NCBI GenBank assembly: GCA_016871195.1
Contig: VFZN01000014.1
Location: 1-64,000, forward strand
Direction of reading: 5' to 3'
Length of the DNA: 64,000 nucleotides
Origin: Acidobacteriota bacterium
GTDB lineage: Bacteria; Acidobacteriota; Vicinamibacteria; Vicinamibacterales; UBA2999
The translations under genes were made by a program, and so were the position numbers. Under the pieces are notes generated by a model. The model was not told the origin of the DNA. It made no database searches and saw only the letters and a list, made by a program, of their open reading frames with translations. Below, in pieces: positions 47,275 to 63,355 of the stretch. Within the stretch, counting starts at the first letter, position 1; each line of letters opens with the position of its first letter.

Positions 47275-48279
47275 TCAGACGACACGCGCTGCGACAATCA
47301 GGGTCAGGCCAATGACAAACGCCACAAACATCAGCGTCAGCAAGCGTGAGGTCCCGGCCGGTGCCGTCCTGAATTCCTTCCAGACAAACACGCCCCACAG
47401 GGCGGCCACAAGCGTGGCCCCCTGTCCGAGTCCATACGAGATCGCAAAGCCGGCAGCGCCGGCGGCAATGATGCTCAGCGACATACCGAGATTCCAGATC
47501 GCCCCGCCCAGAATGCCGATCAGGTGCAGACGCGTCGTGCCCTTGGAAAAATAATCTCCGAATGGCACAGGCTCGCCAACAAACGGGCGCATCATCACCA
47601 GCGAATTCCAGAGAACGTTCGACGCCAGCAGCCCGACCGAAAACAGGACGATGGCCGTATAGGGACCGAGCTTGCCCGACTCGAGGTTGATAAAGTCTGC
47701 AGACATCGATGCTGCAACGAAGCGATAAAAGAAACCCATCAGGACACCAGCCACGACTGACAGCACAATGCCTTTGCTGGCCGTGCGCTGCCCCTGCGAC
47801 GGCAGGCGGCTGTAGGCCAGGGCCGAGAGAAGGATTGCCGCCACCACACAGCCCACACCGATGAACAGCAGTGGCGCATTGCCGACCGGGCTGGCCAGGT
47901 AGTTTGTGATCACGCCGAGCACGAGCGCGAGTCCGACGCCGATGGGAAAGGCCACGGCCATGCCGGCGATGTCGATGGCAGCCACGAGGAGGATATTCGA
48001 CAGATTGAAGACGGCCCCGCCAATGAACGCTGACTGCATCGACGCGCGATCGGCCTGATTGAGATCGTCGAGAAAACTGCGGCCGGCTGTCCCTGTGCTG
48101 CCAAGTGAGAACGCCAGCGCCAGCGCAAAGAGCAGCACCCCGATGGCATAGTCCCAGTAGAAGAGCTCAAAGCGCCATTCCTTGCTCGCCAGCTTCTGCG
48201 TATTCGCCCACGATCCCCAGCAGATCATGGTGACGACGCAGAGCACGACGGCTACGACGTACGATTCGACTACGGTCAT
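47275..48279 (-). CDS. sugar/ureide-type permease (DMT superfamily, GRP/UPS-like)
   Basis: The 334-residue protein has about ten membrane helices. It opens with the signature W-G-S-W-A-N-T-Q-K-L-x-x-K-x-W-R-F-E-L-F-Y-W-D-Y near residue 21, seen in GRP (glucose/ribose porter) and ureide-permease proteins of the drug/metabolite superfamily. Helical repeats end with I-G-L-T-L-I-V-A. It is the third gene behind the TonB receptor and a nucleoside hydrolase, with 34 bases to the latter. The likely job is import of ribose or a freed base (inference). AGGAACAGCG precedes the ATG. Confidence 0.83.
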   Translation of the reverse strand: MTVVESYVVAVVLCVVTMICWGSWANTQKLASKEWRFELFYWDYAIGVLLFALALAFSLGSTGTAGRSFLDDLNQADRASMQSAFIGGAVFNLSNILLVAAIDIAGMAVAFPIGVGLALVLGVITNYLASPVGNAPLLFIGVGCVVAAILLSALAYSRLPSQGQRTASKGIVLSVVAGVLMGFFYRFVAASMSADFINLESGKLGPYTAIVLFSVGLLASNVLWNSLVMMRPFVGEPVPFGDYFSKGTTRLHLIGILGGAIWNLGMSLSIIAAGAAGFAISYGLGQGATLVAALWGVFVWKEFRTAPAGTSRLLTLMFVAFVIGLTLIVAARVV

Positions 48280-48313: not shown

Positions 48314-49372
48314 TCATGGTTGTCGCCGCATCGGCGCGGGCCTCGCCGTCACGCGCTCGACAAAGAGCTGGATGAATCGATCCCAGTCGAGATCGGACTG
48401 CACCTGCATGGGCTGCGCCTGCTCGCCGCCAGGCCATCGTTCCCGGCCGCCCACCGTCACGCCGTAGCTGGGTCCCGGATTCACGTCGACATCGACCAGC
48501 AACTCTTCGGTTTTCGCGACGGACGGTGCCACGAGGGAAACCGCCGCCACCTGGTCGTACATCAGCATCACGCGGTCCGGACGTGCCTCGTACATCGGGC
48601 CGAGATGTTCACGTATCAGTCTGGTGATCGGGGTGTCGGTGGCAAGGATGCGGTCAAGCCACGGCTTCGTGAATCGCGCCTTGCGGGACACATTGAGAGG
48701 GGACAGCAGGATGGGGATGCCCGACCTGAGCACGATCTGGGCCGCCTCGGGATCGACGTAGATGTTGAACTCGGCGTTCGGGGTGTGGTTTCCAGCGCCG
48801 TCTGGAAGTGCCGCAATGGCTCCGCCCATGATAACCAGCTGTTTGACGTTCGACGCAAACGCGGTGTCCATCCGCATCGCCATGGCAATGTTGGTCAGCG
48901 GGCCAATGGCCAGGATGGTCACCTCCCGAGGATGAGCACGGACGGTCTGCACGAGGTAGTCGACGGCACCCTGTCGTTCAGCCCGCTTGCTGGTCGCAAA
49001 TCCACCGGGAGGTTCACGTGCCGGGGGATTGCTGTACCAGCCCCCATGAGTCCGGCGGTCCCAGTCGGTGCCCACATGCAGCAGGGGCGCTGCTGCGCCC
49101 TCGTACACGGGAACCTCTCTTCGCTCCGTCGCTTCCAGGATCTTGAGCACGTCGGCCGTCGCGACATTCAGGCTGCGGTTGCCTGCTACTGTCGTGATTC
49201 CCAGCAGATTGATGTCGGGCGAGTTGAGAACGAAGAACAGTGCCAGCGAATCGTCCTGGGGAGGAAACGCGAAGTCCGTGTCAAAGATCACCTTCTGCGC
49301 AGGCTGGGCGGCGGCGGAAGCCGCCACCAGCACCGCACAGAACCACTGGGTGACGAGGCGTGTCATGGACAT
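48314..49372 (-). CDS. exported nucleoside hydrolase (1)
   Basis: The 352-residue enzyme cleaves the N-glycosidic bond of ribonucleosides. It has a signal peptide ending ASAAAQ, so it is exported. The calcium/catalytic Asp cluster is present as D-T-D-F-A-F-P-P-Q-D-D, with a longer loop than the usual D-x-D-P-G-x-D-D. P-L-T-N-I-A-M-A and A-E-F-N-I-Y-V-D-P-E-A-A are conserved. The usual H-D near the end is Y-D (MLMYDQVAAV), so the leaving-group His is missing. The gene sits 22 bases after the TonB receptor. The start has no clear ribosome-binding site; an in-frame ATG two codons later is possible. Confidence 0.87.
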   Translation of the reverse strand: MSMTRLVTQWFCAVLVAASAAAQPAQKVIFDTDFAFPPQDDSLALFFVLNSPDINLLGITTVAGNRSLNVATADVLKILEATERREVPVYEGAAAPLLHVGTDWDRRTHGGWYSNPPAREPPGGFATSKRAERQGAVDYLVQTVRAHPREVTILAIGPLTNIAMAMRMDTAFASNVKQLVIMGGAIAALPDGAGNHTPNAEFNIYVDPEAAQIVLRSGIPILLSPLNVSRKARFTKPWLDRILATDTPITRLIREHLGPMYEARPDRVMLMYDQVAAVSLVAPSVAKTEELLVDVDVNPGPSYGVTVGGRERWPGGEQAQPMQVQSDLDWDRFIQLFVERVTARPAPMRRQP

Positions 49373-49394
49373 GCATAAGGCACACACGTGACGC

Positions 49395-52300
49395 TCAGAA
49401 CACATATTTCAGTGCCAGCTGAATCTGGCGCGACCCTTTGACCGTCGACGTGATCTGACCGAACAGCGGCGAGCCCACCACGGTGTTCGGAACGGCATAC
49501 TGCGGATTGTTCAGCAGGTTGAATGCCTCGGCGCGGAACTGGAAGCGGGCCATCCGCTTCACCACCGCCATGTCGATGTTGTAGCGACCCGGCCCGAAGA
49601 GCGTGGTGCGGGCAGCGTTGCCAAGCACACCGACGGCAGGGGCGGCAAAGCAGCTCGTGTCGAACCAGCGCTGGGGTGTGGGATTGTCGTTCCGGCCATC
49701 ACAGATGCGGTTCGGTCGGTTGCCGAACGCCGTGCCGGACTGGTTGTTGGCCATGCTCATGCCCAGGGGATAGCCGCTGTGGGCGATGAAGATGGTGTTG
49801 ATGCTCCAGTCGCCGAAGAGCGCCTGCGGCAGCATCCCGGCATTGCTCATGAAGCGGCGGCCCTTGCCGAACGGGATCTGCACGAGCGTACTCACCGACA
49901 GGTTGTGACGCAGGTCGGTGTTGGCCGAACCGATGTCAGCCTTGTCATCGGTCACGACAGGGAAGTAGACAATCCCGGGATCACCACCGAAGCCGGACAC
50001 GCCGTTAGTCAGCGCACGCGCGTACGTGTAGGCCGCGAGGATGTAGTTGCCCCCCGTGGCCCGTCGTTCCAGTCGCAGTTGCAGCGAGTTGTACTTAAGC
50101 CAGCCGCGACTCAGGGCAGTGGTGACGTTGACGAGGTTCGGATACGGACGTCGAGCCGCCGGGTTAAAGCCCGTACCCGGGGTGGCGGTGTTGAGGTTGC
50201 GGCTCTTGTCAAACAGACGGTCGGCATAGGTGCCGGCGTAGGCCACACCGAACACCGAGTTGAACGGCAACTGGCGCTCGACGTTCAGACTCCACTGCTG
50301 GATGCGGCCCTGCTTGATGTTGGGGTCGATGGTGGTCCAGTCGCCCCTATGCGTGGCAGGGTCGATGGGTTGGTTGTTGGGGGGAAACCCGGTGGCCAGC
50401 GTGCGCACCGGGGTGATGTTGTCGCTGACAAACGAATAGGCGTTGGCGAACGGCGGGTTCTGGTACGGCCCCGTCGACCCTCCGATGGCCGAGACGTCGT
50501 GATAGATGCCATAGCCGCCGCGCACCACCGTCTTCGCACTGCCCGGGCTCCATGCGAACCCGATGCGGGGCTGCACGTTGCTCCAGTCGGTCTTGACGCC
50601 GACCGTCCCCCCCACAAAGATCTTTCCGGTGTAGAAGTCGAAGTTGGCAAAGCGATCCTTGGCCTCGCTCTGCGGCGTCGTGACCATGTAGGCCATGCCG
50701 AGCGTCAGCGTCAGCGACTGGCTCACGCGCCACGTATCGTCGAAGAAGATGCGGTATTCCTTCCAGCGGCGGCCCTTGACAGAGCCGTTCAGCTGGTCGT
50801 TGCGGCCCCCCGAGGCCGGCAGCCCGAGCAACAGGCTGGCGATGGAGTTTCCGGTGGCGCCGTTGAGAGATCCCGCTGCATTGAATCCCGACGTGAAGAA
50901 CGGCGTGAAGGCGAACTGGCCCGCCAGCGCCGTGTCACCCAGCAGATTCAGTTGCATCGCGCGGAAGGTGCCTCCCGTGTTGAGCGTGTGGTTCCCTTTC
51001 ACGACGGTGAAGGCGTTGGTGTAGTGATACACATTCGTGCCACCGATGAACGGTGAGAAACCGCGGTCGCCAACGCCCGCGAAATTCTGGAATGTCATGC
51101 GGGTCAGCGACGAGGTCTCGGCTGTGCCCAGATTGGCTCCGGGAATGCCGAGCGCCTGTGACTTGTTCGACCCGTAGCCGAATGAGGTAATGGTGTTATA
51201 GACCCGGTTGTAGCCGGCGGTGAACTGATTCACCGCGCCGCCCTTGAAAACATGGGTGTGCGACAGGGCCACATTGGTGGCTGAGGTGTCGAACGTCTGA
51301 TTGCTCTGGAAGGCAGCAGGAGCACCGAAGTCCGGCAGCCCCGTCGGCAGGTACTGGTCGGCCAGCTCGGCGCTGTAGCGTGCGAAGATGCGATCGCTGT
51401 TGGAAAAATTGTGGTCGATGCGCAAATCACCCTGGTAGTCATTCAGGGTTTTCACCGGGTTGGCCAGGAAGTTCCCCCCGAGCCGATCCATGCGCGTCGG
51501 CAGCGGCAGCAGTTCGACCAGGGCACGGCCGATGGGACTGATGCGATCGGCGGGAATCTGGTTGCCGGGGAAGGGGTCCCGAATCAGTTGACCCGTGGTC
51601 GGATCGACGCGCGTCGTCGCCGGATCGAAAATGGTCGTGGCCGGGGCCCCAGGAAATGATTCGGTGAAGATGCCCTGGCGCATGAGCGCCGTCGGCACGG
51701 TGAGCACGGTCGTCAGGCCTTCGTCGATGTTGTTGCCCTGGAATCCTGCGAAGAAGAACGTCCGGTTGCGGCGGACGGGACCGCCGAGCGACCCGCCGTA
51801 CGTATTCTGATTCCACGGGCGTTTGGTGGCGCCATCAAAAGGGTTACGGGCATCAAGCGCGTCGTTGCGGAAGAATTCGAAGGCCGAGCCCCGGAATGCG
51901 TTCTCGCCCGCCTTACTGCTGACGAGGACGGTCGTGCCGCCACGGCTGCCGTACTGCGCCTGATAGTTGTGCGTCAGCACCTTGAACTCCCGGATGGAGT
52001 CGACATTCGGCAGAATGCCGACGCCACCCGCCGTAAGCTCGTTGTCATCGATGCCGTCGTAGAGCCAGTCATTGGCGTTCTCGCGCATGCCCTGCGCCGA
52101 CACCGACATGCTGCCGCGATACGACACCTCGCTCGTCGGTCCCTGCGCCAGAAAGCTGCCGGCGCGTCCGGTCACAACCCCGGGACCAAGCAGCGCCAAC
52201 TGAACGAAGTTGCGGCCGTTCAGCGGTAACTCAGCCACCTGCGCGGCGTTGATCAACTGTCCGAGGTTCGCGTCGTTGCGCTGCAGCTGCACGACGGTGG

Positions 52301-52673
52301 CGCCCCCGGTCACGGTGACCGAATCAGTCAGCCCGGCCAGACCGAGGGTGAACTCGAGCGTCAGCGAGGCTTGCACCTCCAGCATGACTCCCGAGCGTTC
52401 CTGCGACTGAAAGCCGCTCATCGTGGCCGTGACGGCATAGCGGCCGATCGGCAGCAGCGGCAGGGTGAAGCGGCCGGATTCATCCGTGACGACCTCACGG
52501 ACGGCGCCCGTTCCCTCGTTCCGTGCGGTGACAGTGGCCCCGGGCAGGCTTGCAGCCGACCCGTCGAGCACCGTTCCGGAAATCGTGCCGGTCGACTGCG
52601 CCCAGGCCGTCGACGACAGCAACACGCCCACCACCCCGAACACCGATGTCATCCGCCGCAATAGCCGTTTCAT
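49395..52673 (-). CDS. Oar-like TonB-dependent receptor
   Basis: The 1092-residue outer-membrane receptor has a signal ending STAWAQ. A carboxypeptidase-regulatory domain lies at about 28-110 (T-G-T-I-S-G-T-V-L-D, G-R-F-T-L-P-L-L-P-I-G-R-Y-A-V-T). A plug follows with Q-V-A-E-L-P-L-N-G-R-N-F, then a large barrel ending IQLALKYVF. It is the first gene of a leftward unit with a nucleoside hydrolase and a permease, with a LacI-type operator just upstream. This suggests import of nucleosides or ribose-containing compounds, but the ligand is inference. Confidence 0.9.
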   Translation of the reverse strand: MKRLLRRMTSVFGVVGVLLSSTAWAQSTGTISGTVLDGSAASLPGATVTARNEGTGAVREVVTDESGRFTLPLLPIGRYAVTATMSGFQSQERSGVMLEVQASLTLEFTLGLAGLTDSVTVTGGATVVQLQRNDANLGQLINAAQVAELPLNGRNFVQLALLGPGVVTGRAGSFLAQGPTSEVSYRGSMSVSAQGMRENANDWLYDGIDDNELTAGGVGILPNVDSIREFKVLTHNYQAQYGSRGGTTVLVSSKAGENAFRGSAFEFFRNDALDARNPFDGATKRPWNQNTYGGSLGGPVRRNRTFFFAGFQGNNIDEGLTTVLTVPTALMRQGIFTESFPGAPATTIFDPATTRVDPTTGQLIRDPFPGNQIPADRISPIGRALVELLPLPTRMDRLGGNFLANPVKTLNDYQGDLRIDHNFSNSDRIFARYSAELADQYLPTGLPDFGAPAAFQSNQTFDTSATNVALSHTHVFKGGAVNQFTAGYNRVYNTITSFGYGSNKSQALGIPGANLGTAETSSLTRMTFQNFAGVGDRGFSPFIGGTNVYHYTNAFTVVKGNHTLNTGGTFRAMQLNLLGDTALAGQFAFTPFFTSGFNAAGSLNGATGNSIASLLLGLPASGGRNDQLNGSVKGRRWKEYRIFFDDTWRVSQSLTLTLGMAYMVTTPQSEAKDRFANFDFYTGKIFVGGTVGVKTDWSNVQPRIGFAWSPGSAKTVVRGGYGIYHDVSAIGGSTGPYQNPPFANAYSFVSDNITPVRTLATGFPPNNQPIDPATHRGDWTTIDPNIKQGRIQQWSLNVERQLPFNSVFGVAYAGTYADRLFDKSRNLNTATPGTGFNPAARRPYPNLVNVTTALSRGWLKYNSLQLRLERRATGGNYILAAYTYARALTNGVSGFGGDPGIVYFPVVTDDKADIGSANTDLRHNLSVSTLVQIPFGKGRRFMSNAGMLPQALFGDWSINTIFIAHSGYPLGMSMANNQSGTAFGNRPNRICDGRNDNPTPQRWFDTSCFAAPAVGVLGNAARTTLFGPGRYNIDMAVVKRMARFQFRAEAFNLLNNPQYAVPNTVVGSPLFGQITSTVKGSRQIQLALKYVF

Positions 52674-52812: not shown

Positions 52813-52826
52813 TGAAAACGTTTTCA
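52813..52826. promoter_or_regulatory. LacI-type operator O1, perfect palindrome
   Basis: TGAAAACGTTTTCA is a perfect 14-base palindrome with the central CG of LacI/GalR-family sites. It lies 140 bases before the TonB receptor and 125 before the lacI-like gene, so it can serve both. Confidence 0.75.
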
Positions 52827-52898: not shown

Positions 52899-52950
52899 GC
52901 AGACTAAAACACGGACCGCACCTGATGTCAAGCGTGGTCGGAGGGTGGAC

Positions 52951-54072
52951 ATGGCCCGCGCACGACGCGAGACACTGACGCCGGCACGCCGCGGCACGGC
53001 CGGCACGCACGCCGCCGCCCCGCGGTCAGCATCCATCACCCGTGTGGCCCAGCGGGCCGGGGTCTCCATCGCCACCGTCTCCCGGGTCTTTGCCGATCAT
53101 CCCGCCGTCAGCGAGGCGCTGCGCCAGCGTGTGCGCGACGCCGCCCGCGCACTCAACTACCGGCCCAGTCGCGCGGCCCGCGCCCTGCGCGCCGGCACCA
53201 GCCAGGCCGTCGGCGTCGTCATTCCCGATCTCGAAAACCCGTTCTTCACCGCGGTCGTCCGAGGCATCGAGGGCGTGCTGCAGGCCGCCGGCTACATGCT
53301 GCTCCTTGCCAACTCCGACGAAGATACGACGCGCGAGCAGCGCATCCTCGAGACCTTCCGCGCCGATGGTGTCGCGGGCGTCATCTTTGTGCCCATCAAT
53401 GGGGCCCGCCATGCGTATCAGGACGTGCTGGCGCCTCCCTTGCAAGTCGTGGCCATTGATCGTTCGGCCGTAAGCCTCCGCACCGACCTCGTCACCGTCG
53501 ACAACGTTGGGGGTACACGCCGGGGCGTGCTGCACCTGATCGGGAAGAACCACAGGTCCGTCGCCCTGCTCGGAGGACCCTCCAGACACAGCACTGCCAA
53601 GGAGCGCGAGCGCGGCTACTACGAAGCCCTGCGCTCAGCGGGACTCCCAATCCGGTCGGAGCTGATCTATCACGGCGACTTCCGGGAAGGCGGAGGCTAC
53701 CGCGGCATGAAGGCACTGCTCGCCCTGCCCCGTCGGCCAGGTGCCGTCTTCGTCGCCAACAACCTCATGACCCTCGGGGCTTTTCGTGCCCTGCACGAGG
53801 CTGGCGTGCGCGTACCCGGGGACCTGGCGCTGGTCGGCTTCGATGACATGCCGTGGGCGACCTCGTTGAATCCGCCACTTACCGCCGTCAGCCAACCCTC
53901 GCACGAACTCGGATCGTCAGCCGCAGATCTGCTGCTCGATCGCATCGCACGCCCGGGTCGGGCCGTCCGGCATGTCATGCTCGATACCACACTGGTGGAA
54001 CGGGCCTCCTGCGGGCCGGCGACCAATCAGGTCCCGGCCCCGCCCGCAACGGTGAGGCGTTCCAGGCGATGA
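52951..54072 (+). CDS. LacI-family repressor of the nucleoside locus
   Basis: The 373-residue regulator has an Arg/Ala-rich leader and a LacI HTH: S-I-T-R-V-A-Q-R-A-G-V-S-I-A-T-V-S-R-V-F (about residue 27), with hinge N-Y-R-P-S-R-A-A-R-A-L. The periplasmic-binding-like sensor domain runs from V-G-V-V-I-P-D-L-E-N-P-F-F to V-G-F-D-D-M-P-W-A. CGGAGGG precedes ATG 52951, the start used. Divergent from the TonB receptor, with two operator-like palindromes between them. The ligand is possibly ribose or a nucleoside (inference). Confidence 0.92.
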   Translation: MARARRETLTPARRGTAGTHAAAPRSASITRVAQRAGVSIATVSRVFADHPAVSEALRQRVRDAARALNYRPSRAARALRAGTSQAVGVVIPDLENPFFTAVVRGIEGVLQAAGYMLLLANSDEDTTREQRILETFRADGVAGVIFVPINGARHAYQDVLAPPLQVVAIDRSAVSLRTDLVTVDNVGGTRRGVLHLIGKNHRSVALLGGPSRHSTAKERERGYYEALRSAGLPIRSELIYHGDFREGGGYRGMKALLALPRRPGAVFVANNLMTLGAFRALHEAGVRVPGDLALVGFDDMPWATSLNPPLTAVSQPSHELGSSAADLLLDRIARPGRAVRHVMLDTTLVERASCGPATNQVPAPPATVRRSRR

Positions 54073-54164
54073 TCCGCCTCACGCTGCCGTGTCGTGTACG
54101 TCCCGTCGTGCCCGTGCTCACCCCTGCCGTCCGCGCGTGTGGACGGACTCCGGAGGCCCCGTCC

Positions 54165-55289
54165 ATGCATCGACTGTTGCCCGCCGTCCTCTTCCCCGCA
54201 CTCGCCCTCGCCGTCGCCCTGCTCGTGACGCCGACCCCCGTCGCTGCCCAGGAACGTGTCATCGTCGATGCGGACATGGGCGTGCTCAATGACGATGCCG
54301 TGGCGTTGTTCATGCTGGTCAATTCACCCACGGTCGAGGTGCTCGGCGTCACGATCGTCCCCGGAAATTCGTGGGCAGAGCACTGCACGGCCAGCGCGCT
54401 CAGGCAGCTCGAGCTGATTGGCCGTACCGACATCCCCGTGTTCATGGGTGTCCGCGAGCCGCTGATGGGGTCCCGACAGCCCTGGCTTGAAGCCGAAGAG
54501 CGTCTGTGGGGACGCACCGAGGTGCTCGGCGCGTATGGCCGCCCGCGTGCCACGTCTTACCTCGCACTCGACCGGGAACCGGTCATCGGCTACCCGACGA
54601 CGACCCCTGCCGCCGAAAATGCCGTCGACTTCATCGTCCGATCGGTCAAGGCGTACCCCAACGAGATCACGCTCTTTGTCATCGGCCCCGCCACAAACGT
54701 GGCACTGGCCGTCCGCAAGAATCCCGAAATCGTGCCATTGGTCAAGCGCGTGTATTACATGGGTGGCTCGGTGGACGTGCCGGGCAACTCGACGCCTGCC
54801 GCTGAGTTCAACTGGTGGTTCGATCCCGAGGCCGCCCGCATTGCCCTCCGTACGCCCTTCCGCGAGCAGATCATCGTCCCCACGGATGTCGCCGAGCGGA
54901 TGTTCTACACGAAGGCCGAGTACGACCGCATCGTGTCCGCGCCGGAGACCCCCATCACCAGATTGTTCCAGCAAATCCACGGGCCGCGCTTTGAACGCGA
55001 CCCCCGGTCGCGTTCGTTCATCTGGGACGCACTCGCCACGGGAATCTTCCTGCAGCCATCCCTCGCCACGCAGCTCGTCGACCGCTATATCGATGTGGAT
55101 GTCACCTATGGTCCCAACTACGGCCGCTCCATCGGCTATCACGAGTCGCGCCGACGGTCATTCGCCACTCCGAACGACTTCCCGGCCGGCACCCAGAAGG
55201 TGAAGGTGCTGATGGCCGTCGACCAGCCGAAGTTCTGGGATCTGTACATCGACCTGATGACCCGCCCCGTTCGCGGTGCCAGGCAATAA
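54165..55289 (+). CDS. exported nucleoside hydrolase (2)
   Basis: The 374-residue protein has a signal peptide ending VAAQE and the nucleoside-hydrolase fold. The Asp cluster is D-A-D-M-G-V-L-N-D-D, then P-A-T-N-V-A-L-A-V near residue 180, A-A-E-F-N-W-W-F-D-P-E-A-A and a late I-W-D-A-L-A-T-G-I-F. The usual catalytic His next to that Asp is Trp. CGGAGG is 9 bases before ATG 54165. It follows lacI by 92 bases and precedes a second hydrolase by 11 bases, so it is in an operon with them. Confidence 0.87.
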   Translation: MHRLLPAVLFPALALAVALLVTPTPVAAQERVIVDADMGVLNDDAVALFMLVNSPTVEVLGVTIVPGNSWAEHCTASALRQLELIGRTDIPVFMGVREPLMGSRQPWLEAEERLWGRTEVLGAYGRPRATSYLALDREPVIGYPTTTPAAENAVDFIVRSVKAYPNEITLFVIGPATNVALAVRKNPEIVPLVKRVYYMGGSVDVPGNSTPAAEFNWWFDPEAARIALRTPFREQIIVPTDVAERMFYTKAEYDRIVSAPETPITRLFQQIHGPRFERDPRSRSFIWDALATGIFLQPSLATQLVDRYIDVDVTYGPNYGRSIGYHESRRRSFATPNDFPAGTQKVKVLMAVDQPKFWDLYIDLMTRPVRGARQ

Positions 55290-55300
55290 GGAGGGCCATT

Positions 55301-56416
55301 ATGACGCACAGGACTTTACTGCTCGGGACCCTTGCCGTCGTCGCGACGCTGCTGACCGGCGGCGTCTCAGCTGCCGCCGCTCAGCCACAGCCCCGGAAAA
55401 AGGTCTTCATTGATCAGGATGGCGCCGCGCTCGGCACCGATATGATTTCGACGCTGACCATGCTGCAGTCTCCTGATGTGGAGGTGCTGGGCATCACCGT
55501 GACCGCGGGCGACGCGTGGGTCAAGGCCGGCACAGCGCACATGCTGCGCATGCTCGAGTTGACAGGGCACGGCAATGTGCCGGTGGCCGCCGGCGCAGCC
55601 TTTCCCCTCATCAATTCGCGGGATCTGGCGACCGCATGGGAAGCCCAATACGGCGAGTTCTCCTACAAGGGCGCATGGAACCCCGGCCGCTACCACGAGC
55701 CCCACGTCGTCCCGACGCCGCCCACCGGTGTCACCACGCTCGCGCCTGTCGATCTCCACGGCGCACTGTTCATGATTCAGCAGATTCGCAAGTATCCCGG
55801 CGAAGTCACGCTCTGGGTCGGCGGGCCGTTCACCACGGTGGCACTTGCGCTCGGGCTCGATCCCGAAATCGCCTCCCTCGCCAAGGAACTGGTGCTCATG
55901 GGTGCCGGATTCAACGTCGACGGCGGCGGCAACCACCGCATCAACGGGCGCCGTGAGTTCAACTGGTGGTGGGATCCCGAGGCGACCCGCATCGCCATGA
56001 GTGCCCCGTGGCGACGCATCGTGATTACCCCCGTGGACATTTCCGTCAAGACATCCCTCGGTGACGACGTGAAGCGACGCCTCGCGGCGTCCTCGTCGCC
56101 AGCGGCGCAGTTCATCACGCGATTTCATCCCGTCGGCCAGAACGCAGGCTACATGTGGGATGAAATCTCCGTGCTGGCCTTCCTCGATCCCAGTCTCATC
56201 ACCAGACAGCAACAGCTCTTCGTCAATATCGATATCAACCATGGTGCAGGATACGGCCAGACGATCTTCGTCGAAGACGTGGTGCCGGGCACGCCCGCAA
56301 GGCCGCGCACCATGCCGTCGTGGTGGCGCGTGGCCACGGTGCAGTGGGATCTCAACCTGCCGAAGTTCTATGACCAGTTCGTGCAGCTGATGAGCAGAAC
56401 GCCGGCGCGCCGGTAA
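55301..56416 (+). CDS. exported nucleoside hydrolase-like protein (3), altered active site
   Basis: The 371-residue protein has a signal (LLTGGVSAAAAQ) and the family order. The Asp cluster reads D-Q-D-G-A-A-L-G-T-D, so the first of the two adjacent Asp is Thr. G-P-F-T-T-V-A-L-A-L has Thr where family members have Asn, and the late motif is M-W-D-E-I. R-E-F-N-W-W-W-D-P-E-A-T and a Gly-rich insertion are conserved with hydrolase 2. It may have shifted substrate or lost activity. GGAGG precedes the ATG. Confidence 0.83.
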   Translation: MTHRTLLLGTLAVVATLLTGGVSAAAAQPQPRKKVFIDQDGAALGTDMISTLTMLQSPDVEVLGITVTAGDAWVKAGTAHMLRMLELTGHGNVPVAAGAAFPLINSRDLATAWEAQYGEFSYKGAWNPGRYHEPHVVPTPPTGVTTLAPVDLHGALFMIQQIRKYPGEVTLWVGGPFTTVALALGLDPEIASLAKELVLMGAGFNVDGGGNHRINGRREFNWWWDPEATRIAMSAPWRRIVITPVDISVKTSLGDDVKRRLAASSSPAAQFITRFHPVGQNAGYMWDEISVLAFLDPSLITRQQQLFVNIDINHGAGYGQTIFVEDVVPGTPARPRTMPSWWRVATVQWDLNLPKFYDQFVQLMSRTPARR

Positions 56417-56427
56417 GCCGAGGGCAC

Positions 56428-57372
56428 ATGACCAGACGACCCAGAATTGCAGTGATTGGCAGTGCAAACGTCGATCTGACGACCTTCTCCGATCGGTTTC
56501 CGAGGGCGGGCGAAACGATCTTCGGCCAGCACTTTGATCTCGGATGGGGTGGAAAGGGCGCCAATCAGGCGGTGGCTGCCCGGTTGTGCGGTGCGGACGT
56601 CTCCATGATCGCCAGAGTTGGCGACGACCTGTTCGGTCCGGCCACGATTGCAAACTTCAATGCCCAGGGCATCGACGCGTCGCACGTGCATGTGGTGCCT
56701 GGTGTCTCCAGCGGCGTCGCACCGATTTTTGTCGAGTCGAACGGACAGAATCGAATCATCGTGGTGAAGGGAGCCAACGACCGGTTGCGGCCGGCCGATG
56801 TCGACGCCGCTGCACCCATGCTGGCCGTCGCCGACTGCATCGTGCTGCAGTTCGAAATTCCGCTCGACACGGTCTTTCATGCTGTCCGGTTCGCCCGTCG
56901 CCATGGCATCCGCTGCATCGTGAACCCGGCCCCGGCTCAGGCGTTCGAGCTTCGGGAGCTTGAAGGTGTCGACTATTTCGTACCCAATGAGACCGAAGCC
57001 GAAGCCATTTCCGGCATGCCTGTGCGGACGATTGAAGACGCGACCGCGTGCGCAGTGCACATGGTCAGCCAGGGACTGACACGTGTCATCATCACGCTCG
57101 GTGCCAACGGGGCGCTGCTGGCCACCGCTGATGGCGCGACGCACATTCCCCCGTTCCCGGTGGATGCTAGGGACACCACCGGGGCAGGCGATGCATTTGT
57201 CGGCAGCTTCGCCGTCTATCTCGGAGAGGGGCTTTCCGAGCCTGAGGCGATTGCGAGAGCCAACCTCTATGCGGCGCTGTCGACGACAGGCATCGGCTCG
57301 CAGAAGTCGTTTGTGACACGACAGCGCGCCGATGAGGAGTGGACCGCGCGCGCGGCCCCGCCGCACGCATAG
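56428..57372 (+). CDS. rbsK: ribokinase-like PfkB sugar kinase
   Basis: The 314-residue kinase has the N-terminal I-G-S-A-N-V-D-L-T-T and W-G-G-K-G-A-N-Q-A-V-A-A near residue 40. V-N-P-A-P-A is near residue 170. The signature 2 D-T-T-G-A-G-D-A-F-V-G-S (about 250) contains the catalytic Asp. It fits ribokinase, which makes ribose-5-phosphate, and lies 11 bases after the third nucleoside hydrolase. It is the only cytoplasmic catabolic enzyme of the locus. Confidence 0.9.
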   Translation: MTRRPRIAVIGSANVDLTTFSDRFPRAGETIFGQHFDLGWGGKGANQAVAARLCGADVSMIARVGDDLFGPATIANFNAQGIDASHVHVVPGVSSGVAPIFVESNGQNRIIVVKGANDRLRPADVDAAAPMLAVADCIVLQFEIPLDTVFHAVRFARRHGIRCIVNPAPAQAFELRELEGVDYFVPNETEAEAISGMPVRTIEDATACAVHMVSQGLTRVIITLGANGALLATADGATHIPPFPVDARDTTGAGDAFVGSFAVYLGEGLSEPEAIARANLYAALSTTGIGSQKSFVTRQRADEEWTARAAPPHA

Positions 57373-57416: not shown

Positions 57417-58481
57417 CTACTTTGGCGCGGTCGTGGCCCCGGTGCGCGTGAGGAACCGCTCGATCGCGTCGGGATTGAACCGCGCCACGCTGAACGGGTG
57501 CGGCAGGGCCGCTTCAAAGGTTGTCGACTTGAGCCTGCCCTGCCCATTGGCCAGAATGAGTGTCGTCGGTGACATTCCACGCATCGTGGCAAACGAACTC
57601 GTTTCGAAGCCATATTGCCGATCGCGATAGGTCACCCTCGGCCAGGCGGGGCCGGTGCCAACCATGGCGATCGCCCGCACGAAATACTCGCGCTCCGTTG
57701 CGGCCTGCTGCAGGACCGCACCCACGGGATAGCGATAGTGAAAGGCAGCGTCATCGGCCCCGGCGGCGCGATAGATGCGCCCGGTCGAGGTCAGGGCAGC
57801 GACACCGACCTGCTGTTCGGGTGGCGTAAACAGAGAGACACCGCCAGCCCGGGCGTCGGTTGCTGCGGCCAGCAGGCGCTCCAGATCGGCGTCCGGCAGT
57901 CCAATCGCCCCGGGCGTGGCGTCTGCGAAGTGTTCTTCCTCGACGAGGCCGTCTGCCAGTTTCCGGATATGAATCGTTCGGTCCGTTGCCCGGCCGCAGA
58001 CCAGCATGAGTGCGTTGTACTCGGTGGTCGCCTTGAGATAGTCGCGACAGTCCCCGCACCCTCGGCTGTCACCGCAACTCTGCGAATGGAACGCGATGAA
58101 CTGCACCTGCCGCGCTGCCGCTGCGCCGAATCTCGCGATCACGTGATTCATGACCGACACTTCGCCATGGACAGCCTGGGGCCAGGGATACTCGGTATTG
58201 CCACCGACCACCACTTCCTCGCTGCCGTCGACGGTCACCACAGTAGCTGTCCGTACATGAAACTGCGAAATGGCCGGGTCGGTGCCGGCATTCGCAGCGG
58301 CGTCGAGGGCCTTGCCAATACGTCCCAGCAGGGCCTGGTCATCCGTTCGGATGGATGAGTCGACCGCCAGGGTCCAGGTCGGGACAGGCGACTCCCGGCG
58401 GCACCCACCGACGGCGAGAGCCGCGACCGCGAGGCCGACGCCGAGCAGTTGACGACGTCCGGGAGGCATCATGCTCATCAT
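57417..58481 (-). CDS. lipoprotein with tandem cytidine-deaminase-like domains
   Basis: A 354-residue protein with a Tat-like RRQLLGVG and a lipobox VGGC. The first domain has H-G-E-V-S-V-M-N-H (zinc His and catalytic Glu) near residue 103. It also has G-C-G-D-C-R-D-Y-L (two zinc Cys) near residue 140, in the order used by cytidine deaminases. The second half (about 235-330) starts G-V-A-A-L-T-S-T-G-R-I-Y, like a second deaminase fold, but lacks the zinc residues. An exported deaminase is unusual. Its ATG overlaps the amidohydrolase stop as ATGA. Confidence 0.72.
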   Translation of the reverse strand: MMSMMPPGRRQLLGVGLAVAALAVGGCRRESPVPTWTLAVDSSIRTDDQALLGRIGKALDAAANAGTDPAISQFHVRTATVVTVDGSEEVVVGGNTEYPWPQAVHGEVSVMNHVIARFGAAAARQVQFIAFHSQSCGDSRGCGDCRDYLKATTEYNALMLVCGRATDRTIHIRKLADGLVEEEHFADATPGAIGLPDADLERLLAAATDARAGGVSLFTPPEQQVGVAALTSTGRIYRAAGADDAAFHYRYPVGAVLQQAATEREYFVRAIAMVGTGPAWPRVTYRDRQYGFETSSFATMRGMSPTTLILANGQGRLKSTTFEAALPHPFSVARFNPDAIERFLTRTGATTAPK

Positions 58482-59908
58482 ACTCCGGGAATGCCCTTGG
58501 CGACGGCGTCCTCAATCTTCCGGCCGATGGCCCGCATGCGCGTCCTCACGTCGCGCACATCAATAGTCGTGAGCCGGCGGTCCTGCATGAGCACCCGCCC
58601 GTGCACAATCGTTGTGACCACATCCTTCGGGCTCGTGGCATAGACCAGTGACGAATACACGTCATAGCGCGGCACGAGGGTCGTCGAATCCCCGTCCAGC
58701 ACGATGACATCGGCGAGCTTGCCGGCCTCGAGCGAGCCCAGACGGTTCTCCATGTGGAGGGCCCGTGCGCCCCCACGCGTCGCCATCTCGACGACATCGA
58801 CGGCCGGCATCGCTCGCCGGTCGCGCTGGTCGAGCTTGTGGATCTTCGCGACGTAACCCATCTGCCCGATGATGTCGAGCGTGTTGCCGCTCATCGCGCC
58901 GTCGCTGGCAAGGCCAATGCGCAGGCCGCTCTTGAACATCTTCGTCGCTGGCGCCACAGGCCGTGCAGACTTGGCGTTGGACACCACGGCATGTGCGAGG
59001 CCCACATCTCGCGCCTTCAGAAGGGCGATGTCGCTGTCGTTGACATACACACCGTGCGCCGCCAGCAGGCGCGGGCTGAGCAGGCCAATGGCGTCGAGAT
59101 ACTCCACTGGCGTCTGTCCGCGTTCCGTGCGCAGTGTCTCGACTTCATCGGTCATCTCGGCGACGTGCATGAGAATCGGCAGATTCAGGGCGTCGGCTTC
59201 CTTCGCGATCTCGCGCAGATGCCCCTCGTCGAGCGAGTACGGGGCGTGGGGAGCAAGTGCAGGTGTCACGAGCGGATGATTGCGGTACTGGGCCGCAAAC
59301 GAACGGGCATAGCCAAGGCCGCCATACGGCTCGGGTGCATCGGGCGCGGCGAAGTTGACGATGGTCTCGCCCAGCACGCCACGCAAACCCGCCTGTACCG
59401 TCGCCCTGGCCACCTCGTCTTCGAAGTAGTACATGTCGACGAACGTCGTCACGCCGCCCTCGATCATTTCGGCCATCCCGTGCAATCCTCCCCAGAACAC
59501 AAGCTCACGATCGATGAGAGCCTTTTCCAGTGGGAAGATCAGCGTCCGCAGCCGATCGGGTACATCGTCGCCGAGGCCGCGGAAGACCGTCATTGACACA
59601 TGCGTATGCGTGTTGATCAGACCCGGCATGACAATGCCGCCCCGCGCATCGACCGTGCGGGCTGCCCGGTATTTGGCGGCAATGGAGGCTGGTCCCACCT
59701 CAACGATATCGGAACCCCGGATGACGACCGTACCGCCTTCGAGGACATCGCGCTGGTCGTTCATGGTGACGACGGTGCCGTTAGCAATCACGAGATCGGC
59801 AGCCGTTGTCGCTGGAGTGCCCGGTGAACTGCAGCCTGCAGACACGATCACGGCTGTCACGGAAAGGGCCGACAGACGCTGGCGCCAGCGTAAGAAGAGT
59901 GTTGGCAT
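58478..59908 (-). CDS. lipoprotein amidohydrolase, MTA/SAH/adenosine-deaminase family
   Basis: The 476-residue protein has a lipobox VSAGC. It then follows the SsnA/MtaD deaminase family: P-G-L-I-N-T-H-T-H-V-S-M (metal H-x-H, residue 95). I-L-M-H-V-A-E-M gives the third His and Glu near residue 247, A-A-H-G-V-Y-V the fourth, and A-S-D-G-A-M-S-G the Asp near residue 338. Such enzymes deaminate 5'-methylthioadenosine, S-adenosylhomocysteine or adenosine. Being exported and translationally coupled to a cytidine-deaminase-like lipoprotein suggests nucleoside deamination outside the cytoplasm (inference). Confidence 0.85.
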   Translation of the reverse strand: MPTLFLRWRQRLSALSVTAVIVSAGCSSPGTPATTAADLVIANGTVVTMNDQRDVLEGGTVVIRGSDIVEVGPASIAAKYRAARTVDARGGIVMPGLINTHTHVSMTVFRGLGDDVPDRLRTLIFPLEKALIDRELVFWGGLHGMAEMIEGGVTTFVDMYYFEDEVARATVQAGLRGVLGETIVNFAAPDAPEPYGGLGYARSFAAQYRNHPLVTPALAPHAPYSLDEGHLREIAKEADALNLPILMHVAEMTDEVETLRTERGQTPVEYLDAIGLLSPRLLAAHGVYVNDSDIALLKARDVGLAHAVVSNAKSARPVAPATKMFKSGLRIGLASDGAMSGNTLDIIGQMGYVAKIHKLDQRDRRAMPAVDVVEMATRGGARALHMENRLGSLEAGKLADVIVLDGDSTTLVPRYDVYSSLVYATSPKDVVTTIVHGRVLMQDRRLTTIDVRDVRTRMRAIGRKIEDAVAKGIPGV

Positions 59909-61489: not shown

Positions 61490-62407
61490 CTACCCCCCAG
61501 CCTGCACCGGGCGCAGGGTGCTCGCCGGCACGCCACCGGGCCAGCCCGCACGCGCCGCCACCTCGACCAGCACCATATGCGGCACCGTCAGCGCAGCGAG
61601 CCCGACAAAGATCAACTGCATCACAGCCGCATCAAGTGACTGGGCTCCGAGCAGTCGCCATGCCACCAGCGCCGCCGCTCCAGTCCCCGCCATCGGCCAC
61701 GCCGCCGCACGGACCAGCGCACGCACTGACATCGCGCCTTCGCCCATAGCCGCGCGAAGCAGATGCCGCAGACTGTGCATTAGACAGAAGAACACGGTGA
61801 AGCTCACGAGCGGAGGCGCACACGCCGACAGTACCGCCACCCCGGCAATCTCCGCCCCGGTCATGGGTCGTCGCCGCCCTTCAATCACCGCGCACAGCAG
61901 CGCCGCCACGAGCAGCGGCCACGCCGATTGCGACAGCAGCATCGTGACCGGCACGGCTGCATCGGCACCAGCCACCAGCCCCAGCAGACGCTCGGTCTCG
62001 GGTCCGTAGCGCAACGCAGGCAGCACGACCACTGTCGCACCGTATACGACGCGAGAGAGCCACGGCACACCCGTGACCAGATCCTCAGAGAAATGCAGCA
62101 GGGAGACGAGCAGGAAGCCCGTCAGGAACACCACCGGTGCCAGCAGCCACAGCAGCACCACGCTCAGCGCCAGGCCGGCATAGCATGCGGCGAAGATGGC
62201 CCACTCACCCGGGCGCGAAAAACGATAGACACGTGCCGCCAGCAGGGGATCAATCGCGCCGTGTGGAAGTCCCGCCAGGCCAATGAGGCCGGCAGCCACC
62301 AGCAGCTCTGTCTGCACCGCAAGGCGCGCCCCAAACATGGCCGCCACACACGCGACCGCGGCGGCACACAGAAACACGACACTCTGCCAACGAGGGACCG
62401 GGGCCAT
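61490..62407 (-). CDS. blh: Blh/Brp beta-carotene 15,15'-dioxygenase
   Basis: The 305-residue membrane protein splits beta-carotene into two retinals for rhodopsin. It has about eight hydrophobic helices and the four family His in G-L-P-H-G-A-I-D-P, S-L-L-H-F-S-E-D, C-L-M-H-S-L-R-H and T-V-P-H-M-V-L. AGGAGG is 6 bases before ATG 62407. It follows the rhodopsin gene by 77 bases with a hairpin in between. No carotenoid synthesis genes are in the window, so beta-carotene must come from elsewhere. Confidence 0.93.
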   Translation of the reverse strand: MAPVPRWQSVVFLCAAAVACVAAMFGARLAVQTELLVAAGLIGLAGLPHGAIDPLLAARVYRFSRPGEWAIFAACYAGLALSVVLLWLLAPVVFLTGFLLVSLLHFSEDLVTGVPWLSRVVYGATVVVLPALRYGPETERLLGLVAGADAAVPVTMLLSQSAWPLLVAALLCAVIEGRRRPMTGAEIAGVAVLSACAPPLVSFTVFFCLMHSLRHLLRAAMGEGAMSVRALVRAAAWPMAGTGAAALVAWRLLGAQSLDAAVMQLIFVGLAALTVPHMVLVEVAARAGWPGGVPASTLRPVQAGG

Positions 62408-62425
62408 GCGATCCTCCTGTGACGG

Positions 62426-62460
62426 CAAACAACAGGTGCCAGGACGATGCCCGGCACCTG
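62426..62460 (-). terminator. hairpin between rhodopsin and blh
   Basis: On the coding (minus) strand, CAGGTGCC (62460-62453) pairs with GGCACCTG (62440-62433), and TTGTTTG follows. It is a weak intrinsic-terminator-like element that could reduce blh transcript relative to rhodopsin. Confidence 0.5.
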
Positions 62461-62484: not shown

Positions 62485-63261
62485 CTACTTGTGACCCTCG
62501 GTCTCGCTGACCGCGACCGACCAGATGATCACGCCGAACGCGATCTTGTTCACCACGTCGGCAAAGTTGTAGACGATGTTCAGCATGCCCATGCTGTCGG
62601 CAGGATTGCCACCAGTGAGATAGCCCACAAAGTAGCCGATCGGATACACCGCCCAGCCGAACGTCACAATCAGACGCATCGTCTTGTAGGCCGCCTGCAC
62701 CGAGGCCGGCGCATCACCCGCGGCCGCCTTCGACGCTTCACCCGCGAAAATCTCGTAGAGCACCGCGAACCAGAACAGCATGCTCACGATGAAGGCCGGC
62801 CACACGCCCACGTAGCCCGCCTCACCGACATAACCGGCTACCAGCATGCCTGTCGTGCTGCCGATCAGGCGCCAGAAGATACCCGACGATGCCCGGCCAA
62901 TGGCCGAGAGGATCAGGTGGAACTCGGTGATCAGCAGTGGCACCGTGATGAGCCAGTCGATGTAGCGATACACCGTCGGGGTCGACCCGGTCGCAATCCA
63001 CACTTCCCGCATGTAGAAGTAGTGGGTGGCGGCCACCAGCGTCACGAGGCCCGACACGGTGAGCGAGGTCTTCCACTTGCCCGCGACGCGCTGCGTCTCG
63101 AGGAAGAAGAACGCGGTCGCGGCCACGAGGGCCATCGAGATCAGCCAGAACGAAATGCCGACAAAGTCGCTGGACTCCAGCGTCTTGGCCGACTGTGCAG
63201 ATGCGAGGGAGGGCACCAGTGCGAGCAGGGCCCATGCCGATGCAACGCGGAAACGAATCAT
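62485..63261 (-). CDS. proton-pumping proteorhodopsin, green type
   Basis: The 258-residue retinal protein has a signal peptide ending LASAQ and seven helices. Helix C reads R-Y-I-D-W-L-I-T-V-P-L-L-I-T-E-F, with Asp102 (acceptor), Thr106 and Glu113 (donor), the D-T-E pattern of outward proton pumps. His80 pairs with Asp102 as in proteorhodopsin. Leu110 at the tuning site predicts green absorption. Lys239 in V-N-K binds retinal. GGAGG is 7 bases before the ATG. Followed by blh. Confidence 0.95.
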   Translation of the reverse strand: MIRFRVASAWALLALVPSLASAQSAKTLESSDFVGISFWLISMALVAATAFFFLETQRVAGKWKTSLTVSGLVTLVAATHYFYMREVWIATGSTPTVYRYIDWLITVPLLITEFHLILSAIGRASSGIFWRLIGSTTGMLVAGYVGEAGYVGVWPAFIVSMLFWFAVLYEIFAGEASKAAAGDAPASVQAAYKTMRLIVTFGWAVYPIGYFVGYLTGGNPADSMGMLNIVYNFADVVNKIAFGVIIWSVAVSETEGHK

Positions 63262-63349
63262 ATCTGAACCTCCATGAGAGAAACCCGACAGAGCGAAGCG
63301 AAGCCGTGCAGCGATTGCCCGTGCGCGCCAGTGTAGGCACACTTGCACC

Positions 63350-63355
63350 ATTATA
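63350..63355 (-). promoter_or_regulatory. -10 box candidate for the rhodopsin gene
   Basis: TATAAT on the minus strand lies about 90 bases before the rhodopsin start. No good -35 is at the right spacing. A palindrome CCATAA (63410-63415)/TTATGG (63423-63428) is 55 bases further upstream and could be an operator. The rest of 63262-63491 has nothing I can name. Confidence 0.4.

Follow-up and report, generated by a model that had tools for sequence, protein, structure and literature searches.

To our knowledge, the known nucleoside cytidine deaminases (CDAs) are cytoplasmic salvage enzymes. In the window analyzed here, a 64,000-nucleotide stretch of an Acidobacteriota contig, an earlier note had pointed to an open reading frame that joins cytidine deaminase motifs to an export signal, raising the question of whether a member of this family may work outside the cytoplasm. 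The best explanation we can offer, to which we assign a probability of about 0.7, is a nucleoside deaminase of the CDA family, nearest to the two-domain dimeric (E. coli-type) enzymes, that is exported and anchored to a membrane and would act in the periplasm, feeding uridine to exported nucleoside hydrolases. The features on which this reading draws are collected in Table 1.

Table 1. Features of the CDA-like gene and its neighbourhood, in window coordinates.
Feature	Coordinates	Strand	Remarks
Predicted exported cytidine-deaminase-like protein	57417..58481	-	354 aa; two CDA-fold domains; ATG start
Predicted signal peptide with lipobox AVGG/C27, residues 1-27	58401..58481	-	includes GRRQLL (not conserved)
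N-terminal, predicted catalytic CDA domain, residues 38-192	57906..58370	-	F73, N95-x-E97, H105-G-E107, C142-G-D-C145
H105-G106-E107	58161..58169	-	predicted zinc ligand and catalytic glutamate
C142-G-D-C145	58047..58058	-	predicted zinc-binding cysteine pair
C-terminal pseudo-catalytic CDA domain, residues 193-349	57435..57905	-	invariant A242-D-D-A-A-F-H248; without zinc ligands
Putative amidohydrolase lipoprotein, MTA/SAH/adenosine-deaminase type	58478..59908	-	stop overlaps CDA start (ATGA)
Predicted exported inosine-uridine nucleoside hydrolase 1	54153..55289	+	ORF listed from 53853; start probably MHRLLPAVL, near 54165
Predicted exported inosine-uridine nucleoside hydrolase 2	55301..56416	+	
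Predicted exported nucleoside hydrolase 3	48314..49405	-	
Ribokinase, without signal peptide	56428..57372	+	TIGR02152 over cut-off
Membrane transporter, ureide-permease/RhaT-GlcU type	47275..48279	-	putative ribose or base uptake
Outer-membrane beta-barrel receptor, Oar-like	49395..52673	-	
LacI-family regulator	52945..54072	+	
Perfect palindrome TGAAAACGTTTTCA, probable LacI operator	52813..52826	.	between two divergent arms

Relationship to known cytidine deaminases

The motifs named in the earlier note are present, HGE at residues 105-107 and CGDC at 142-145, and residues 71-165 match the NCBIfam cytidine deaminase model TIGR01354 with an E-value of 8e-7. At 29.3 bits this match to the tetrameric CDA model lies under the curated cut-off of 113.65, as does the score for the dimeric CDA model TIGR01355 (18.5 bits, cut-off 275). 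In the second half of the protein, a second NCBIfam CDA model was matched weakly at residues 202-275, and phmmer aligned the B. subtilis CDA to residues 218-332 (E 3e-4). A Pfam search gave no match for the window copy, and PF00383 was matched by two of its homologues with E-values of merely 0.016-0.042. Judged from these profile and sequence matches, both halves of the protein are remote CDA relatives and the resemblance is not due to chance. Since the profile matches are remote and below cut-off, ordinary annotation would overlook this protein.

E. coli Cdd aligns collinearly with the 354-aa protein at 21% identity, its F71, N89, E91, H102, E104, C129 and C132 falling on F73, N95, E97, H105, E107, C142 and C145; by this alignment all E. 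coli Cdd catalytic positions are present in the first half. Across nine homologues (alignment A1) N95, E97, H105, G106, E107, C142, G143, D144 and C145 are invariant, and residue 73, which is F or Y, is the sole variable E. coli Cdd catalytic position. The catalytic positions are held down to 46-50% identity. Two further cysteines, C136 and C162, flank the predicted zinc pair (57996-58076, minus strand) and are invariant in nine of nine homologues; they may form a disulfide in the periplasm.

An AlphaFold model of the full protein, built from nine sequences, has two CDA-like domains (pLDDT 79.8, pTM 0.74). Its top Foldseek match is the V. cholerae two-domain CDA 4eg2 (276 columns, E 2.6e-8), with a low overall TM-score which indicates that the monomer model places the two domains relative to each other either unreliably or differently. 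The C-domain is matched to mouse CDA with a Z-score of 18.1 (rmsd 1.8, 131 residues). The N-domain modelled alone had a pLDDT of 71, with low confidence near the cysteine loop; CDAs took all the top places among its structural matches, with Z-scores reaching 10.5 (rmsd 3.0 across 124 residues), ahead of the other families listed. Structure prediction and fold comparison thus give CDAs as the best match of both halves, in agreement with the deaminase fold proposed earlier. HHalign of one half against the other gave no meaningful match, and an internal duplication is argued instead from the fold and from the separate CDA match of each half.

In a domain tree, the N-domains group with the N-domains of dimeric CDAs (support 95/89, with long branches). 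The C-domains do not group with dimeric-CDA C-domains in the best tree, and a shared clade was not rejected (p-AU 0.233), again with long branches. Two Azospirillum records considered as candidate two-domain CDAs are single-domain enzymes. Dimeric CDAs (E. coli Cdd, V. cholerae 4eg2, Arabidopsis CDA; TIGR01355) have the same arrangement of a catalytic N-domain and a zinc-less C-domain in one collinear chain, the same catalytic positions, His as the first zinc ligand and A-x-x-A-A-F in the pseudo-domain. The acidobacterial protein differs from them in its low identity (~21%), its predicted export, usually with a lipobox, its scores far under the family cut-off, HGE in place of the usual HAE, an insert that lengthens the loop ahead of the cysteine pair, and, just ahead of the first Cys of the P-C-x-x-C motif, Gly or Ser instead of Pro in all nine sequences. 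Tetrameric CDAs (B. subtilis 1jtk, human, mouse; TIGR01354) have the same fold as each half and the same N-x-E, [HC]-x-E and C-x-x-C layout, but are single-domain cytosolic chains; the window's genome encodes an enzyme of this type as well.

The C-terminal half and the export signal

The earlier note had taken the second half for a dead paralogue domain. It does have the CDA fold and lacks zinc ligands, but the word "dead" is misleading: 62 of its 157 positions are invariant in the nine-sequence alignment A1 versus 46 of 155 in the N-terminal half, dN/dS is ~0.06-0.25 in both halves, indicating purifying selection on each, and E. coli Cdd is built on the same two-domain plan. This conservation and the dN/dS values rule out a degenerate second half. 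Because it is the better conserved half and its dN/dS is equally low, the C-terminal half is, on sequence grounds, dead as a catalyst only and a working part of the protein. The AENAAFN of E. coli Cdd (residues 228-234, in its zinc-less C-domain) aligns to ADDAAFH (242-248), and four other dimeric CDAs have ENAA[FY] at the same motif. In CDA structures, the AENAAF-type loop of one subunit enters the active site of the neighbouring subunit. By analogy with the dimeric CDAs, the C-terminal domain probably completes the active site of the partner chain, and a loop reaching into a neighbour's active site would explain the strong conservation of a non-catalytic domain.

The export signal and lipobox described earlier were recovered here. 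The N-terminus of the window copy is hydrophobic, its C27 fits the PROSITE pattern PS00013, and PS00013-type lipoboxes were found in seven of nine proteins (the window copy and six of eight homologues), the copies at L004 and L006 having a hydrophobic anchor and no lipobox Cys. The first ATG of the window copy leaves no K or R among the first seven residues, which is a proviso on the lipobox match; if translation began at one of the later in-frame ATGs (58472 or 58469), the basic residue that the lipobox rule wants would be there. As part of our main reading, the CDA-like protein is therefore taken to be exported and membrane-anchored, probably in the periplasm. The Tat route suggested in the earlier note did not hold up, since GRRQLL occurs only in the window copy and none of the eight homologues, including the 76% identical one at L002, has a Tat-like RR. 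TatC is encoded in the window's genome, so Tat export is possible, but with a twin arginine that is not conserved it is unsupported, and we rejected it as a conclusion.

Gene neighbourhood and a possible nucleoside pathway

The closest solved relative of the amidohydrolase that precedes the CDA-like gene is the 5-methylthioadenosine/S-adenosylhomocysteine deaminase 4f0r (E 5e-80). It appears to be an exported lipoprotein from a purine-nucleoside-type deaminase family that is normally cytosolic; its counterparts at homologous loci carry a lipobox-like end (L002) or a Sec-type signal (L003, L005, L008 and L009). Export signals were found in the CDA-like protein, the amidohydrolase and the nucleoside hydrolases and not in the ribokinase. 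The Oar-like gene, hydrolase 3 and the transporter run divergently from an arm consisting of the LacI regulator, hydrolases 1 and 2 and the ribokinase. The palindrome between these arms, TGAAAACGTTTTCA, is unique within the window, and L002 has TGAAAACGTTATCA, with one change. A shared LacI operator was looked for ahead of the amidohydrolase-CDA pair and not found there; the probable operator was seen elsewhere.

The transporter scores 84 bits as a plant-type ureide permease, versus a Pfam cut-off of 27, and is weak as a RhaT/GlcU sugar transporter; it may therefore import bases rather than ribose. The calcium-binding Asp motif of hydrolase 2 is DQDGAALGTD, in which Thr replaces one of the paired Asp residues, as compared with DADMGVLNDD in hydrolase 1 and DTDFAFPPQDD in hydrolase 3. 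Related variants, DQDSAGPHGTN and DQDTSGPAGTD, occur in L007. The variant motif possibly reflects an altered metal site or substrate.

Most of these neighbours also surround the CDA-like gene in L002, L005, L007, L008, L009 and G255, and on the short contig of L003 the amidohydrolase adjoins it. In three relatives that have no CDA-like gene (G025, G048 and G057), the transporter is still grouped with one or more hydrolases and the ribokinase; the deaminase pair therefore appears to have been added to a broader module. Nucleoside hydrolases were found in all ten carrier genomes versus 13 of 58 non-carrier relatives, a contrast that ignores ancestry.

The occurrence of an exported CDA relative beside exported nucleoside-splitting enzymes suggests digestion of nucleosides outside the cytoplasm. 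Following Sec export and, for seven of nine members, lipid attachment, the CDA-like protein would reside in the periplasm, where two chains would pair. The N-terminal domain would hold zinc via H105, C142 and C145, with E107 activating water, N95 and E97 holding the ribose and F73 the base, and the partner's C-terminal domain would close the pocket with its A245-A246-F247 loop. Cytidine and/or deoxycytidine could in this manner be converted to uridine and ammonia, while the translationally coupled amidohydrolase lipoprotein may carry out the equivalent step from adenosine-type to inosine-type nucleosides. Uridine and inosine would then be split into ribose and bases by the three exported hydrolases; the ureide-permease/RhaT-type transporter may take up either product, and the ribokinase would trap the ribose. 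These steps suggest that the acidobacterium digests RNA building blocks outside the inner membrane for ribose and nitrogen. We consider the chances roughly even that a two-domain CDA lineage has left the cytoplasm and, in partnership with an adenosine-type deaminase that is also exported, makes up a deaminate-then-hydrolyse route outside the inner membrane. Such a route would convert common nucleosides to forms of the uridine/inosine type that exported nucleoside hydrolases can use, with ammonia and ribose set free for uptake.

The rus (ribose-utilisation) locus of Bacteroides is likewise equipped to obtain ribose from nucleosides, with an outer-membrane receptor, exported enzymes that cleave nucleosides, and ribokinases, and we know of no cytidine-deaminase lipoprotein in it. 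A precedent for periplasmic nucleoside hydrolysis is the nucleoside hydrolase Nuh of Pseudomonas aeruginosa, with ribose and base taken up after breakdown (PMC5437708, PMC5522865). Nuh differs in that adenosine and inosine are split directly, and the portions of the report drawn on here describe no exported deaminase step (PMC5437708). A search of the open literature, which covered few subscription papers, found no exported, periplasmic, extracellular or secreted bacterial CDA, the secreted matches being fish AID/APOBEC-like proteins only, and nothing similar to a combination of periplasmic hydrolase and deaminase. If active, the enzyme would move pyrimidine deamination into the periplasm, give soil and freshwater acidobacteria a route to feed on extracellular nucleosides, and offer a testable case of a pseudo-catalytic domain under strong selection.

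Alternative explanations and distribution

The exported deaminase could act on a substrate other than cytidine, such as a modified nucleoside, a free base or an antibiotic that resembles cytidine and is encountered extracellularly, and be detoxifying or scavenging rather than supplying ribose. HGE for HAE, the lost Pro before C-x-x-C, the insert before the cysteines and the extra invariant C136 and C162 would suit such a substrate, as would the blasticidin deaminases among the structural matches and the gene copies of L004 and L006, which have no adjoining hydrolases. However, the blasticidin deaminases are outranked by CDAs in every fold comparison, the nucleoside-binding N-x-E is invariant, and it is nucleoside hydrolases, a purine-nucleoside-type deaminase and a ribokinase that are conserved beside the gene; we regard a different substrate as unlikely. 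The great divergence from known CDAs and the loss of catalytic residues in the second half are also consistent with an inactive homologue, a periplasmic nucleoside-binding or sensor lipoprotein handing nucleosides to the receptor or the hydrolases. The zinc set would be superfluous in a protein that only binds nucleosides, so the invariance in nine proteins (to 46-50% identity) of the three zinc ligands, along with the catalytic Glu and the substrate-binding Asn and Glu, counts against this role, which we find quite improbable.

Some deaminase-superfamily proteins that bacteria export are toxins, DddA among them (PMC7901873), and a secreted toxin of the interbacterial type was weighed as well. 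The CDA-like protein, however, has its own signal peptide and lipobox and not a delivery domain, matches nucleoside-type CDAs and not toxin-type deaminases, and occurs in a single conserved architecture among metabolic neighbours. With no delivery domain and a metabolic context, a toxin is hardly credible and was set aside. A periplasmic nucleoside deaminase of the CDA family is thus the reading we prefer. What speaks against it is the distance of the scores from the curated CDA cut-offs and the lack of a Pfam match, the changed HGE and lost Pro, the low confidence of the N-domain model around the cysteines, the L004 and L006 copies with neither a lipobox nor these neighbours, and the position of the probable LacI operator away from the amidohydrolase-CDA pair.

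Eight relatives of the CDA-like protein, all in Acidobacteriota, came out of a scan across 84,980 species genomes, and searching 396 acidobacterial genomes with an HMM added one further clear relative, in G255. The gene is absent from all 58 close relatives, four of them of the same genus, and is therefore rare and patchy. The plasmid and phage collections gave no tblastn match to the protein, by which a plasmid or phage origin was ruled out. Every carrier has an ordinary cytosolic CDA as well (at G000:C6:131550-131918 in the window's genome), which rules out a replacement for a missing cytosolic enzyme. In the two gp1 Acidobacteria loci, L004 (5980-7032) and L006 (718-1767), neither a hydrolase nor a ribokinase gene adjoins the CDA-like gene, and nucleoside hydrolases are found elsewhere in both genomes.

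Elsewhere in the window, a bacteriorhodopsin-family gene (62485-63351) adjoins a beta-carotene 15,15'-dioxygenase gene (61490-62428), both on the minus strand, as a putative retinal-making pair. The DWLITVPLLITEF of this rhodopsin resembles the motif of proton-pumping proteorhodopsins, here in an acidobacterium.
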